Position numbers and translations under genes: made by a program. DNA of 64,000 nucleotides from an uncultured SAR86 cluster bacterium (GTDB lineage: Bacteria > Pseudomonadota > Gammaproteobacteria > Magnimaribacterales > D2472), in contig CACJSU010000003.1 in NCBI GenBank assembly GCA_902596165.1, forward strand, positions 1-64,000. The letters are read 5' to 3'. The notes under the pieces are model-generated. The model worked only from the letters and a program-made list of their open reading frames with translations. It was not told where the DNA came from and searched no databases. Within the stretch, counting starts at the first letter, position 1. Each line of letters opens with the position of its first letter. This document shows positions 30,765 through 62,962 of the stretch, one piece after another.

Positions 30765-32189
30765 TTATATGCCACTTTCCTCTCGAGCATCTTTAAATGC
30801 CTGAATAGCTCTAATACGAGATTCCTTCAAATCTAATATGGGTGAAGGATAATCAGCAGATAAAAAAAGATCGTCTTTTGGCTGATGAATTTGAGCAATA
30901 GGAATATCTTTAAGTTCAGGAATAAATTTTTTGATAAATTCTCCAGAGGGATCAAAATTTTGTGATTGAGTGATTGGGTTAAAAATTCTAAAGTATGGAG
31001 CTGAATCTGTTCCAGTTGAAGAACTCCACTGCCAGCCTCCATTATTTGAAGAGAAATCTCCATCTATCAAATGTTGCATAAAAAACTTCTCTCCAAGCCT
31101 CCAATCATGAAGCATATTTTTTGTAAAAAACATTGCAACGATCATCCTTAATCGATTATGCATCCAACCTTCTGAAAGCATCTGTCTGATGCCTGCATCA
31201 ACAATGGGAAAACCTGTTTTACCAGCATAAAAGGCTTTAAGCTCTTCTTTTGAATGTCGCCACTGAATAGAAGCTGTATAGTCTTGAAAAGGAAGATTTT
31301 TACTTACTTTTGGAAATGAGTGCATAATGTTTCTATAAAATTCCCTCCAAACGATTTCATCGATCCACTTACAAATTCCTTTATTACCTGACGTAAATTC
31401 AAAATTATTTAACTTAAGACCCTCCAAGATGCATCTTTTAGGAGAAAGAATACCTAGAGCTAAGTAGGGTGAAATTCTACTGGTTCCATCAATGATTGGA
31501 GAATTCCTGGATTCACTATAAGACTTAACTTTTAACTGAAGAAAATTTTCAAGTCTGTCTCGAGCTGCATCTTCTCCAGCAGGCCAAAGATCAATGTTTA
31601 CTGAATTATTTTTAACAAATTTTAAAGCTGATATATCACTTCGAATGGGAGAGGATTTTTTTAATTCCAATGGCTCCTCTATGTCTAAAAAATTCATTTC
31701 AAAATTTTCAATCCATCTTCTTTTAAAAGGTGTGAAAACTGAGAAAGGTTTTCCTTGTCCTGTCTTAAGAAAACCAGGCTCATAAACAACCTGATCATCG
31801 AACGATGAAGATTCAATATTTTTTTTCTTTAAAGCCTCTACTGAAGCTAAATCTCTATTAATTTCATTTAACCCAAACTCATTATTCCAAAATGCATGAT
31901 CTATTTTTTGTTCAGAGGAAAAGGAAGATAAATCTATCGGCAGAGTTTTGTATGACTCAGTATTAATAGCAATGAGTGGAATCCCAAGCTTTTCCAATGA
32001 TTCTTTTAACACAATTAAATTATTAATTAAGAATTCATGCTTGATATTTGATTCATTATGAGCGTCCCATTGAGAATGAGAAAAGATATAAATCGCTAGA
32101 ACCTCTTGGCATTTGTTCAATGCAGCATTTAATGCAGGATTATCATCAAGCCTTAAATCAGTTCTAAACCAAACTAGTCCTTTTGCCAT
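30765..32189 (-). CDS. phrB: Deoxyribodipyrimidine photolyase
   Basis: LVWFRTDLRLDDNPAL, GWMHNRLRMIVAMFFTKNMLHDWRLGE, NNGGWQWSSSTGTDSAPYFRIFNP. Confidence 0.94.
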   Translation of the reverse strand: MAKGLVWFRTDLRLDDNPALNAALNKCQEVLAIYIFSHSQWDAHNESNIKHEFLINNLIVLKESLEKLGIPLIAINTESYKTLPIDLSSFSSEQKIDHAFWNNEFGLNEINRDLASVEALKKKNIESSSFDDQVVYEPGFLKTGQGKPFSVFTPFKRRWIENFEMNFLDIEEPLELKKSSPIRSDISALKFVKNNSVNIDLWPAGEDAARDRLENFLQLKVKSYSESRNSPIIDGTSRISPYLALGILSPKRCILEGLKLNNFEFTSGNKGICKWIDEIVWREFYRNIMHSFPKVSKNLPFQDYTASIQWRHSKEELKAFYAGKTGFPIVDAGIRQMLSEGWMHNRLRMIVAMFFTKNMLHDWRLGEKFFMQHLIDGDFSSNNGGWQWSSSTGTDSAPYFRIFNPITQSQNFDPSGEFIKKFIPELKDIPIAQIHQPKDDLFLSADYPSPILDLKESRIRAIQAFKDAREESGI

Positions 32190-33181
32190 TGAATCCTCTC
32201 CTCAAGCTGATCGCATAATTGAGATAAGTGATTTTGGACATTATTAGAAGAGTTATCTATTTCTTTAATTAAAAAATTTTTAATTGGCTCTCTTGTAATT
32301 AAATTTAGATCTAAATATTTTTGAATATGCGCTTTATATCTCAAGGGAGATTGAATACCAGAAGGAAATATTGTTGTGACTGGCTTGCCGCTACTAACTG
32401 ATTCTGAAATCATCATTGCACTATCTTCTGTGACAAATATATTTTTAGCTGAGCCAAATAAAGCTGCTAAATTAAAATTTTTAGCTCCTTGATGGAACCA
32501 TGCCGAATAGTCTAATGGAATATTTTGTAACTGTGATCGAATTTTTTTTTCTACAATAGGATCGCTTCTTCTTGAGGTAACTATTGTAATTGGAAGATTT
32601 GTAGTTTTGTGCAATTGCTTGATCGCCTTTATTAGATCATCCCACTCATCTTCTTTATACGAATATCCTATGCCCTCTCCACCTATTAAAAATAATAGAT
32701 GTTCGCTAAGGCCCTCATCTTCTGCAGCTCGGTTGCAAACTCCTGGTGAGTAAAGGCTCGGGGTAATAGAAGCAATTATGTTAGATGAATCCTCATAATA
32801 TCTTTCAACTGTTACAAGAGCATCAAATAGCGAAGAATGCAATCCTCGAGGAGATCCAAGTTGGATAACCGGAATTTTTTTTAAAATCTTTAAGGCTGCG
32901 GTATACGGTGCTGTTTTTCCACCAGCAGCAATAATTAGGTCAAGCCCAGTAGTATCAATTTTTTTGTAAAGAAATGAGATGATTTTTGCAGTCGAGGAGC
33001 TTGGGAAGCGCAGCAAAAGCCTCGAGAAAAAAGTTATTAAGCCTCTTAAATGGTGACTCCTGAATTGAAGATCAATAATTCTTGTTTCTAAAGAATGCTT
33101 GTTTGCAAGCAAGGAGGCTACTCCTTTTGATTGGTTAAAGTGTCCAGGTATTCCATCGCTAATAACAAGAATTTTTTTCAT
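32174..33181 (-). CDS. ELM1/GtrOC1-like (mitochondrial fission ELM1 family) protein, putative glycosyltransferase-like
   Basis: SDGIPGHFNQSKG start, VTEDSAMMISESVSSGKPV; overall resemblance to the bacterial ELM1-like family. Confidence 0.7.
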   Translation of the reverse strand: MKKILVISDGIPGHFNQSKGVASLLANKHSLETRIIDLQFRSHHLRGLITFFSRLLLRFPSSSTAKIISFLYKKIDTTGLDLIIAAGGKTAPYTAALKILKKIPVIQLGSPRGLHSSLFDALVTVERYYEDSSNIIASITPSLYSPGVCNRAAEDEGLSEHLLFLIGGEGIGYSYKEDEWDDLIKAIKQLHKTTNLPITIVTSRRSDPIVEKKIRSQLQNIPLDYSAWFHQGAKNFNLAALFGSAKNIFVTEDSAMMISESVSSGKPVTTIFPSGIQSPLRYKAHIQKYLDLNLITREPIKNFLIKEIDNSSNNVQNHLSQLCDQLEERIQWQKD

Positions 33182-33184
33182 GCT

Positions 33185-33940
33185 TTATGTGTATTTATCT
33201 TGATAAAGATGAATAATTTTATCCTCTAACATCATTTTTTCTACCTTAATTATATCCTCTGGGTTATCAACTCCCAGTATAGGGCCTGAAGATAAAACAC
33301 CTTGAATAGTAAAATCATTTTCCAAGAACCTCATCATATCTATTGACTCTAATTCCTCTAATTCAGTAGGTGATAAACTTGTATAATGTTTCAGAGCTTC
33401 ATTTGTAAAACCGATCATGCCAAGCTGCCTGAAGGTTTTGATGCTATTAAAAGGGACATGTGATCTAGAGAAAAACTTTATCTTTAATTTATTGTCTGTA
33501 ACTGCTTTGACAACATTCGGATTTTCTAGGTCATCACCAATTTGAAAAATTAGATTTGCTACTTCGAGATCTTTTCCCGCAAATGAATCCTTTAAATTAT
33601 TAATATCATCAGGAAATATTTGCGGTTCATCTCCTTGTAATAAAAGAATTAAATCGTAATTGCATCCCTGCTTAGCAAGAATATCTAAAACTTCCTTGGC
33701 TCTTTCTGTTGCTCTTTGGTGGCTGTGGCTTGTTATGACTGAGGGTATACCTTGTGATTGACTCCATTCATTAATTTCTTGATCTGGTGTAGCAATTATT
33801 AATTTATCACAAGCTCCAGAAAGCAATGCTCTTTCATAGCAATGTGCAATCATAGGTATATCTAAAATTTTTTTTAGTGGCTTACCTGGAAACCTTGACG
33901 AAGCCATTCTTGCAGGAATTACCCCTAAAGTGCTTGCCAT
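33185..33940 (-). CDS. kdsB: CMP-ulosonic acid synthetase, KdsB-like (3-deoxy-manno-octulosonate cytidylyltransferase)
   Basis: VIPARMASSRFPGKPLKKILDIPMIAH, LLLQGDEPQI. Confidence 0.85.
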   Translation of the reverse strand: MASTLGVIPARMASSRFPGKPLKKILDIPMIAHCYERALLSGACDKLIIATPDQEINEWSQSQGIPSVITSHSHQRATERAKEVLDILAKQGCNYDLILLLQGDEPQIFPDDINNLKDSFAGKDLEVANLIFQIGDDLENPNVVKAVTDNKLKIKFFSRSHVPFNSIKTFRQLGMIGFTNEALKHYTSLSPTELEELESIDMMRFLENDFTIQGVLSSGPILGVDNPEDIIKVEKMMLEDKIIHLYQDKYT

Positions 33941-34666
33941 TTATTTAAGAAATGGCAGTCTGGCGCCATTATCTAACATTCTAATATCTACACTAAAAGC
34001 AATCATGTCATAGCCCTTAGCTTGCAACACTTGTATCTGATCTATCTCTGGTTCAACAAGATGATATCCACATTTAATATTTTCTTGTTTAGCTGCAGAT
34101 AAAATTTTCGCCTCGGCTTCATTAAATTCATCAGAATCAAATACTCCAGGATTATTGAGTGAAGCAGAAAGATCATATGGGCCAATAAAGTACCCATTTA
34201 TATTTTGCGAAAAAATTTCTTTACAGTTTTTTAAGCCTTTCAAGGATTCAATTTGAGCATAAATCTCAATTTTAGTTGCTTTATCTGAAATATAATCTTG
34301 CTTCTGAAGATTTTCACCATACCCCTGAGCTCTTGCAAGACCCATCCCTCTTGAACCCTTAGGAGGATAATGACATGCAGAAATAATTTTTTCTATTTGA
34401 TTGAGTGTCTCTATCATTGGTGCCAATATCCCCTTTGCCCCAGCATCAAGAACTCTTTTAATTTGAGAGGAGTCTTGGTTAGATAACCTTACAAAAGGTT
34501 TAGATCCAGCTAAGTCAATTACTCTAATAAGTTGCTCAGCTTGACTGATATTTATACAACTATGCTCAAGATCTATCACAATCCATTCATAGCCTGCCTT
34601 GACAAAAATTTCAGCGATTGATTCATTTGGGAGGCTTTGCCAAGTGCCGATTGAAAGGTTGTTCAT
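33941..34666 (-). CDS. HpcH/HpaI family class II pyruvate aldolase
   Basis: WIVIDLEHSCIN, IKRVLDAGAKGILAPMIET, GPYDLSASL. Confidence 0.88.
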   Translation of the reverse strand: MNNLSIGTWQSLPNESIAEIFVKAGYEWIVIDLEHSCINISQAEQLIRVIDLAGSKPFVRLSNQDSSQIKRVLDAGAKGILAPMIETLNQIEKIISACHYPPKGSRGMGLARAQGYGENLQKQDYISDKATKIEIYAQIESLKGLKNCKEIFSQNINGYFIGPYDLSASLNNPGVFDSDEFNEAEAKILSAAKQENIKCGYHLVEPEIDQIQVLQAKGYDMIAFSVDIRMLDNGARLPFLK

Positions 34667-34678
34667 AAATATGATGTC

Positions 34679-35644
34679 TTACGTTATTTTTATATTATCA
34701 TCTAATCCATTTATGGCAGCCATGCCCATAGCATTAATTCCTTCATTGGTAAGACTTGATCTATGAGATGTACCAAAAAAGTTTGGTAATTTTAATAGTG
34801 GGTTGTCAAAAGATGGCTCTTCTTCATAGACATCAAATCCTGCAAAGGCAGTATGATTTTTAACCAGGAAATTATAAAGATCCCCCTCATTAACTATCCC
34901 GCCTCGAGCAGTATTTACTATACATACACTTGATTTAAGTTTGTTAAAATTAGATGCCGAAATCAAATTAGCTGTTTGTTTGCTTAGCGGAAGGTGGATA
35001 CTAACAATATCTGATTTTGAAAGAACTAAATCTAAAGGTAGTTGACAGATTGAATTAGGATTAAGATTTATATCATTAGATATATTTTTAATATCGCCAT
35101 CGGAATAATCTTTTTCATCAAAAAAAATAATATCGCAATTAAATGGTTGAATAAGCGATGCTAACCTTTGACCAATATTTCCAAACCCAAGCAAGCCAAT
35201 AGTTTTGCCAAAAAGCTCTGAACCCTTTTCTTGCGACCAATTTCCATCAAGAATTTCAAGTTTATTATCTTGAATTTTTTTAAGTCCAATTAAAATTAAA
35301 GTTAAGGCTAGCTCAGCAACACTTTGCTTATTAACACCTGGAGTAAATCCTAGTTTGATTTTATAGCTTCTTAGCAATTCTAAATCCAAATTATTTAACC
35401 CTACACCATATTTACTAATAACCTTGAGATCCGGCAATTCAGAAAGTACATGATCAGGCATCGCTTCTATGCCTATAATTGCTTTTGAGGCTGGTTTTAA
35501 AAAATTTATTAAATCCTCTCCTTCCAATGTTTTGCCAGTTTCATTAAGAATAATTGAAGAATATAAATTCTTAAGTTTTGAAACTAAAAAGGTGTTTTGT
35601 GAAAAAGACCTAGAGGCAACCGCAACTGTATCCTTTGTATTCAA
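34679..35644 (-). CDS. D-isomer-specific 2-hydroxyacid dehydrogenase (phosphoglycerate-dehydrogenase-like, no ACT domain); TTG start
   Basis: SKYGVGLNNLDL, GLLGFGNIGQRLA, VNTARGGIVNEGDL, AGFDVYEEEP. Confidence 0.87.
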   Translation of the reverse strand: MNTKDTVAVASRSFSQNTFLVSKLKNLYSSIILNETGKTLEGEDLINFLKPASKAIIGIEAMPDHVLSELPDLKVISKYGVGLNNLDLELLRSYKIKLGFTPGVNKQSVAELALTLILIGLKKIQDNKLEILDGNWSQEKGSELFGKTIGLLGFGNIGQRLASLIQPFNCDIIFFDEKDYSDGDIKNISNDINLNPNSICQLPLDLVLSKSDIVSIHLPLSKQTANLISASNFNKLKSSVCIVNTARGGIVNEGDLYNFLVKNHTAFAGFDVYEEEPSFDNPLLKLPNFFGTSHRSSLTNEGINAMGMAAINGLDDNIKIT

Positions 35645-36388
35645 TTATTCTTTTATGTGATTGTTAGAAAATTTTGCGTCAACCCTGTAATCTGATTGAA
35701 GATTATTTATTAATGCTAATCCACCTGCAGCTTTTACAATGGCAGCTCCAGCTGCAATATCCCATAAGAAAATTCCGTTTTCTTGATAAGTTTCTGCTTT
35801 TCCTGATGCTACATATACCGCTGCCATTGCAGCGGACCCAATCATTCTAATTTTTTTCCAAGACTGAAAAGTTGATATTAATCTATTGAATTCATCATTA
35901 GAATAGTTAGTCTTTGCTGGTATGCCAGTTACTAAAGTAGATTCATTTTTCAGTAATAATGAAGAAACCTGAATTTCTTGGTCATTGACGAAAGCTTTTG
36001 AGTCTTTATATCCAAAATAAAGATCTTCATGATTAAAATCATAAATCACTCCCAAGGTTGGATTCAGATCATGCATTAATGCAATTGAAACACAGCTAAT
36101 TGGAATGCCTCTTAAAAAATTTGATGTTCCATCAAGAGGGTCTATAACCCAATAATACTCGTCCAATTTATCTGTGAGGCCAGTCTCTTCTCCCAAAATT
36201 GAAAAATCACTATGTTCTGCAATGTACTCTTTAATAATATTTTCTGTATCAATATCTAGTTGCAACTTAACATCTCTACCTTCATTTAATAAAACTTTTA
36301 GATCACTTCCGCGAGCTTTAAGTAAAAAATCTCCAGCAAGTAATGCAGCTGATTTTGCAACTTTTAGGGAGTGGTTAAGATCGATCAT
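35645..36388 (-). CDS. Inositol monophosphatase family protein
   Basis: ILGEETG, WVIDPLDGTSNFLRGIP, WDIAAGAAIVKAAGG. Confidence 0.9.
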   Translation of the reverse strand: MIDLNHSLKVAKSAALLAGDFLLKARGSDLKVLLNEGRDVKLQLDIDTENIIKEYIAEHSDFSILGEETGLTDKLDEYYWVIDPLDGTSNFLRGIPISCVSIALMHDLNPTLGVIYDFNHEDLYFGYKDSKAFVNDQEIQVSSLLLKNESTLVTGIPAKTNYSNDEFNRLISTFQSWKKIRMIGSAAMAAVYVASGKAETYQENGIFLWDIAAGAAIVKAAGGLALINNLQSDYRVDAKFSNNHIKE

Positions 36389-62149: not shown

Positions 62150-62962
62150 TTATGACTCTCTTCCATAGTAATCTTCGTATCTCGTAATATCTGACTCCTC
62201 TAATATCTCTCCGCATTGAACCTCTATAACGATCAGCTCTTCAGTATGCTCATTTGAAAGTCTATGAATTGAATGCAATGGAATGAAAACATATTCACCT
62301 GAATTAACCAGAGAGATTTTTGAATCGATTTCAACTGTAGCTTGACCTCTAACTACAACCCAATGCTCAGATCTATGTTCGTGTTTTTGCAGGCTAAGTT
62401 TTCCACCAGGATTAACATTAAGTTGTTTAACCTTAAATCCAAACTCGTCAATAAATGCAGAGTGCTTTCCCCATGGTGCAATAATTGTTTCTGTGCTAAT
62501 GAGGTGATCTGTTTTAATATTTGAAGCATAATTTGTGATAAAGTTTTCAACCATCCATGAACTGCTGTTAATTTTTTCTATTCCACCAATTCCGTATATA
62601 AATTCAACGCTTGGATTGTCAGAAAATTTCTTAAGCTCGGGAGTATTTTCTTTGCCTCTATCTCCACCATTTGCAAAAATAACTTTATTTGAAAACTTTA
62701 AACATTCGTTTATTGCATCACATGCTGAATTATCCCTGTCATCGAATTCAATTACAGCATCTACAAAATTTAAATTCTCTATAATTGCTTTCCTTTCATT
62801 AATTGGCATAAGCAAATATTTTTTCTTTCTTATCAACCATTCATCAGAATTTAAACCAACGATTAGATATTTAGAAGATTTTTTGGCTGCTTTGAAATAC
62901 TCTATATGCCCTCTATGCAGGGGATCAAAGCCACCAGTAACTAAGCAGATTTCGTCTTTCAT
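62150..62962 (-). CDS. Fusion protein: cytidylyltransferase/adenylyltransferase-like (HxGH) domain plus ManC-type cupin (mannose-6-phosphate isomerase type II) domain
   Basis: N-terminal VTGGFDPLHRGHIEYFKAAKKSS; C-terminal FKVKQLNVNPGGKLSLQKHEHRSEHWVVVRGQATVEID...HSIHRLSN. Confidence 0.85.
   Translation of the reverse strand: MKDEICLVTGGFDPLHRGHIEYFKAAKKSSKYLIVGLNSDEWLIRKKKYLLMPINERKAIIENLNFVDAVIEFDDRDNSACDAINECLKFSNKVIFANGGDRGKENTPELKKFSDNPSVEFIYGIGGIEKINSSSWMVENFITNYASNIKTDHLISTETIIAPWGKHSAFIDEFGFKVKQLNVNPGGKLSLQKHEHRSEHWVVVRGQATVEIDSKISLVNSGEYVFIPLHSIHRLSNEHTEELIVIEVQCGEILEESDITRYEDYYGRES

Follow-up and report, generated by a model that had tools for sequence, protein, structure and literature searches.

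A Candidate Aldolase-Based Route to a CMP-Activated 2-Ulosonic Acid in SAR86 Bacteria and Phages

The SAR86 genome described here carries a gene module centered on a 2-hydroxyacid dehydrogenase, a class II 2-oxoacid aldolase and a paralogue of KdsB. Judging from its sequence, we think it fairly likely that these genes form the core of a self-contained route leading to a CMP-activated 2-ulosonic acid distinct from KDO, which the aldolase would assemble from a free aldose and a 2-oxoacid. Known pathways to sugars of this class, those for KDO and the nonulosonic acids, rely on PEP-dependent condensation of the KdsA/NeuB type. A search of open-licence papers, which is not proof of absence, returned no account of such a module. 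We infer all reaction assignments from gene content, catalytic residues, linkage, gain and loss of the block, and subfamily signatures, each of which was observed directly.

Results and Discussion

Genes of the Module

The stretch of DNA analyzed (the window, 64,000 nucleotides) is part of contig C3 of a 1.45 Mb SAR86 genome (G000) that is 86.6% complete. Among named genomes, its nearest relatives come from single cells of SAR86 and carry the same genes (aldolase identity 88-94%). The module and its neighbors are arranged as follows:

32174..33181, minus strand: ELM1-family protein (PF06258) with predicted GT-B fold; optional, candidate glycosyltransferase
33185..33940, minus strand: KdsB-like CMP-ulosonate synthetase of the module subfamily (core); 251 aa, CTP_transf_3 126 bits
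33941..34666, minus strand: HpcH/HpaI-type class II 2-oxoacid aldolase, GxH subtype (core); 241 aa, HpcH_HpaI (PF03328) 126 vs 25 bits
34679..35644, minus strand: D-2-hydroxyacid dehydrogenase, PGDH/GhrB-like (core); 321 aa, TTG start, 2-Hacid_dh_C 146 bits
35645..36388, minus strand: IMPase-family phosphatase; 247 aa, Inositol_P 160 bits
36389..36435, no strand: site of a GmhA-like SIS isomerase (194 aa in sister genomes, L013 3953-4537 and L014 5702-6286), empty in the window genome
36436..37458, minus strand: Gfo/Idh/MocA oxidoreductase, module member (assigned by Pfam), which travels with the module in SAR86 and in L146-L148
37461..38573, minus strand: secreted glucose/sorbosone dehydrogenase-like protein (GSDH), a resident neighbor also present in genomes that lack the cassette

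A preliminary description had recognized four minus-strand genes with intergenic gaps of 0, 12 and 0 nt (KdsB to IMPase), and these are confirmed by intact reading frames, by Pfam scores far above cut-off for all four proteins, and by intact catalytic residues. The IMPase retains its catalytic motifs (EET/DPLDGT/WD), and the PGDH-like enzyme conserves the PGDH-type catalytic Arg/Glu/His. The latter scores below the phosphoglycerate dehydrogenase equivalogs (TIGR01327: 175 vs 454; NF008759: 131 vs 404). Elsewhere in the window, the reading frame at 62150-62962 (minus strand) encodes a CTP_transf_like nucleotidyltransferase (PF01467) fused to a type II mannose-6-phosphate isomerase cupin (PF01050).

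Linkage and Extent in SAR86

Among 203 genomes of the SAR86 order, a close aldolase (E at most 3e-69) occurs in 22, and a close KdsB paralogue (at least 47% identity) occurs in the identical 22. The Fisher p value for this co-occurrence (6e-30) is optimistic because the genomes are related to one another. The order KDSB-ALD-PGDH-IMP is retained down to about 50% identity across 18 family-level loci (L051-L068). Chance adjacency can be ruled out by the co-occurrence in 22 of 22 genomes, the kept gene order and the recurrence in another class. Searching genome contigs with the single aldolase sequence returned three SAR86 records only.

In most family-level loci, a GmhA-like SIS isomerase (P0001; PF13580), which scores below the gmhA equivalog cut-off, sits between the IMPase and Gfo genes. 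It is present in 14 of the 22 cassettes and missing from eight, including that of the window, and we found no close homologue elsewhere in the G000 genome. In four cassette-less genomes of this genus (L266-L269), the same site is occupied by GSDH-IMP-PHR-ALDH, with CapD in front in three of them, and Gfo is missing there. Since IMPase and GSDH are retained at this locus, they are residents around which Gfo, SIS, PGDH, aldolase, KdsB and ELM1 have been gained or lost. A role for GSDH in the module is doubtful. The resident IMPase is probably used by the pathway, and in another class an IMPase also lies within the module (L147 and L148). ELM1 stands beside KdsB in many cassettes and is absent from some; it also occurs without the aldolase in L182.

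These comparisons refine the cassette as first described. The linkage of its core (PGDH, aldolase and KdsB) stands, and the proposed check on whether aldolase and kdsB stay together came out in favor of conservation. Gfo and the SIS gene of sister genomes had been missed, and membership of the IMPase is ambiguous given its residence in the four cassette-less genomes.

The Module Outside the SAR86 Family

Copies of the PGDH-aldolase-KdsB core also occur in other Gammaproteobacteria, on a plasmid, on contigs of tailed phages and in a second class of the same phylum; which isomerase, phosphatase and oxidoreductase go with it varies. Type 1 modules consist of KDSB, Gfo, SIS, PGDH and ALD. They appear in shuffled order in that second class (L146-L148), where an IMPase accompanies two of the three loci and all five close aldolase matches lie in the module. 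The module aldolase of L148 (G625:C17:24073-24807) contains an in-frame TAG, reflecting either decay or an assembly error.

Type 2 modules contain PGDH and ALD, usually with KDSB; an SDR replaces Gfo, a PF01182 protein replaces SIS and a HAD phosphatase replaces IMPase. PF01182 is the glucosamine-6-phosphate isomerase/6-phosphogluconolactonase family. This type was found in other SAR86 families (L069-L074), in other gammaproteobacteria (L097-L099), and in L145 and L149; L098 is a six-gene run KDSB-ALD-PGDH-SDR-HAD-PGL. The cultured Acuticoccus sp. I52.16.1 carries on a plasmid (NZ_CP094833.1) the run ALD, NeuA-like cytidylyltransferase, PGDH, HAD and SDR, in which the NeuA-like enzyme, of the other CMP-ulosonate type, stands in for KdsB. 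The plasmid KdsB matches listed share at most 36% identity and are mostly labeled kdsB. For each of the isomerase, the phosphatase and the oxidoreductase, an unrelated enzyme of similar type can take its place, which is the pattern expected of a real pathway. Most clusters outside SAR86 family f1 are surrounded by polysaccharide genes.

The aldolase is not universal, since some type 2 clusters lack it. L178, L179 and L180 (in G190, G194 and G197) read PGL-PGDH-HAD-KDSB-SDR, and no HpcH aldolase was detected anywhere in these three genomes. L184 reads PGDH-SDR-HAD-KDSB with no HpcH aldolase nearby; its genome (G058) also holds a type 1 cassette.

Phage Copies

The single aldolase sequence gave no match among viral contigs, and an alignment search of the same contigs returned 17 loci. 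IMG/VR contigs carry PGDH-ALD pairs (L168, L172 and L174), KDSB-PGDH-ALD trios (L175-L177 and L197), one PGL-ALD-KDSB set (L164) and a weak ALD match (L240). L175-L177 are apparent close copies and should be counted once. Coordinates of three of these sets are:

L176, 1920-4322: KdsB-PGDH-aldolase set
L197, 8007-11413: KdsB-PGDH-aldolase set
L164, 344-2587: PGL-aldolase-KdsB set

Downstream of the L176 trio come HK97-gp10-like/neck and tail-terminator genes, and the L164 set is followed by genes for a ribonucleotide reductase and an exonuclease of the Cas4 type. The KdsB and aldolase proteins of L176 and L164 matched no PHROGs family. Seven further viral contigs (L161-L163, L165, L169, L170 and L173) encode GxH-type aldolases with no PGDH or KdsB gene adjacent within the stretch covered. 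Annotated phage records yielded two Staphylococcus entries only (30% identity), possibly host DNA.

Signatures of the Aldolase

The metal and pyruvate residues of the aldolase (H35, R60, E140 and D165) are invariant. Its AlphaFold model (pLDDT 92) matches the folds of HpaI, SwHKA and GarL (E 1.6e-20), with TM scores of about 0.89 to HpaI and SwHKA. The protein scores below the equivalog cut-offs for HpaI (145 vs 369), GarL (122 vs 407) and RhmA (121 vs 441). Position 202 is His, within a GxH motif, in 22 of 25 module members and in all 13 viral members; the 22 other homologues have F, L, I or V (21) or a gap (one), and none has His. The three module exceptions are all divergent (the second copy of L071, L075 and L077). 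Within a numbering offset of one residue, H202 aligns with F210 of SwHKA, a relative of known structure in which this Phe contacts C3 of hydroxypyruvate (PMC10099721). This substitution suggests a changed nucleophile site, which by itself does not prove use of hydroxypyruvate. Members of the HpcH/HpaI family are known to use erythrose and other polyhydroxylated aldehydes together with either pyruvate or hydroxypyruvate (PMC7610986).

Signatures of the KdsB Paralogue

The KdsB paralogue keeps the CTP-loop and two-metal residues (PAR...R..K, QGD and GVD): P9, R11, R16, K20, D104 and D225 are invariant and match residues named for KdsB (PMC3149649). Comparing five canonical enzymes, at positions fixed or nearly so, with 23 module enzymes revealed eight differences (canonical to module, window numbering): L17F, S76R, T129N, H172Q, Y176I, Y178F, E201D and Q202M. 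Gln172 occurs in 22 of the 23 module enzymes, and I176 and D201-M202 in most of them. Several of the eight lie in the C-terminal domain, which in KdsB binds KDO (PMC3149649). The window enzyme falls just under the kdsB equivalog TIGR00466 (154.6 vs 155.2), scores below NF003948 (155.5 vs 281) and passes only the subfamily model NF003952 (217 vs 193 bits). The KdsB tree places the canonical enzymes in a single group (97/97). Support for the module group is moderate (90/87), and long-branched members fall outside it. The KdsB of the aldolase-less cluster L178 retains the canonical His where the aldolase-linked enzymes have Gln, so the product of such clusters may differ.

Canonical KDO Genes in the Same Genome

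A search of the window genome, called for in the preliminary description, located kdsA (C10:13956; 374 vs a cut-off of 314 bits) and kdsD (C10:49884; 328 vs 204 bits). A canonical kdsB lies at C8:2401-3138, next to what appear from sequence to be a 918-aa msbA/lpxK-type gene and a murB-like gene; the cassette enzyme is its paralogue (33% identity). For kdsC the search gave only a marginal candidate at C3:69445 (109.5 vs 107 bits), whose role in KDO synthesis is uncertain because it lies inside a NeuB/NeuA cluster. Because kdsA, kdsD and canonical kdsB are encoded elsewhere in the genome, the cassette is, on this gene inventory, not the genome's KDO supply.

The idea that a pyruvate aldolase and a phosphatase beside a CMP-ulosonate synthetase could form an alternative pathway survives as the best reading, that is, an aldolase-centered module. 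That the module takes the place of KdsA/KdsC in KDO synthesis is unsupported, given the canonical genes and the eight diverged positions of KdsB; the option of a route in addition to KdsA/KdsC holds, since canonical KDO genes coexist with the module. Just beyond the window, contig C3 holds NeuA-like/NeuB-like clusters in two places, at 64000-75000 and at about 92000-96000. It is therefore probable that the strain produces several distinct ulosonic acids in CMP-activated form.

Proposed Pathway and Alternatives

In the pathway that we favor, a free aldose would come from the action of a phosphatase (IMPase or HAD) and an isomerase, which is GmhA-like in sister genomes and a PF01182 protein in other loci. 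The HpcH-type aldolase would join pyruvate or hydroxypyruvate to this aldose, giving an ulosonic acid without KdsA/KdsC, and the KdsB paralogue would activate the product with CTP. A transferase, in some genomes perhaps the ELM1 protein, would then add the sugar to a surface polysaccharide; the ELM1 model (pLDDT 92) best matches GT-B glycosyltransferases and UDP-GlcNAc 2-epimerases. The PGDH-like enzyme could make hydroxypyruvate or oxidize an aldonate, and in the favored pathway it is a possible source of hydroxypyruvate. Weighing against this pathway are the clusters that lack the aldolase (L178-L180 and L184), the absence of the SIS gene from eight of the 22 cassettes, the resident status of the IMPase and the ambiguous part of the PGDH-like enzyme. 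A more specific and rather speculative version takes the product to be a 3-hydroxy-2-ulosonic acid, Ko-like or shorter, in CMP-activated form. Here hydroxypyruvate would come from the PGDH-like enzyme and a phosphatase; the GxH aldolase, with His202 contacting the extra hydroxyl, would attach it to an aldose, and activation of the acid would fall to the KdsB paralogue. Dha (3-deoxy-heptulosaric acid) was weighed as a product since HpaI forms a related dioate. The sequence gives no reason to choose Dha, and no paper on its biosynthesis in bacteria was found in the open-licence literature.

The existence of PGL-PGDH-HAD-KdsB-SDR clusters without an aldolase raises the possibility, unlikely in our view, that the ulosonic acid arises by oxidation at C2. 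Gfo or SDR and a PF01182 lactonase would generate a phosphorylated aldonate, PGDH would oxidize its 2-hydroxyl, the phosphatase would free the product and KdsB would activate it; the aldolase would play an accessory part, lengthening or trimming the product. The PGDH family does oxidize or reduce 2-hydroxyacids, and PF01182 includes 6-phosphogluconolactonase. However, wherever both occur, PGDH and aldolase form the tightest pair, even in phages, and the SIS isomerases of type 1 have no place in this scheme. The canonical His in the L178 KdsB also means that the aldolase-less clusters may yield another product.

Homology to KdsB, together with the passed NF003952 model, is what one would expect if the cassette made extra KDO from arabinose and pyruvate, as a capsule-type analogue of KpsU. 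We consider this duplication distinctly improbable in view of the genome's own canonical kdsA, kdsD and kdsB, the scores under the kdsB equivalog cut-offs and the eight fixed differences, among which the C-terminal domain shows Gln for His and Asp-Met for Glu-Gln. Least probable of all, and very unlikely, is a catabolic or salvage role, in which aldolase and PGDH would degrade 2-keto-3-deoxy sugar acids beside an unrelated kdsB. Characterized HpcH/HpaI enzymes act mostly in the retro-aldol direction (PMC7610986), but the most consistent partner here is a CMP-ulosonate synthetase, the trio is present in phages, and most clusters outside family f1 have the polysaccharide setting described above.

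Relation to Known Systems

The proposed module shares with the canonical KdsD-KdsA-KdsC-KdsB pathway an isomerase, a phosphatase, addition of a C3 unit to an aldose and CTP activation by an enzyme of the KdsB fold. It differs in that a metal-dependent HpcH aldolase would replace PEP-dependent KdsA, in its additional 2-hydroxyacid dehydrogenase and Gfo or SDR, and in the changed KdsB residues, and it would run beside the canonical pathway. With the NeuB/NeuA nonulosonic pathways it would have a CMP-activated ulosonic acid in common, and some copies have a NeuA-like enzyme in place of KdsB, but the module contains neither NeuB nor another PEP-dependent condensation. The aldolase resembles the class II enzymes HpaI, GarL, RhmA and SwHKA in fold and catalytic residues; it departs from them in the His at SwHKA F210, in scores far under the HpaI, GarL and RhmA equivalogs and in its biosynthetic neighborhood. 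The dioxygenase KdoO hydroxylates a KDO residue of LPS to give Ko (PMC5462993). A 3-hydroxylated ulosonic acid of this kind is one candidate product type here, although the module, unlike KdoO, would make the free acid prior to activation.

Conclusion

If the proposed pathway is correct, a class II 2-oxoacid aldolase would provide a second way to build CMP-ulosonic surface sugars, and this route would be present in one of the most abundant lineages of the ocean and also in phages. The pairing of a GxH aldolase with a KdsB bearing Q and DM offers a sequence signature by which the module may be predicted. Should the 3-hydroxy-2-ulosonic acid version hold, the product would represent an undescribed class of nucleotide sugar that is phage-encoded too.
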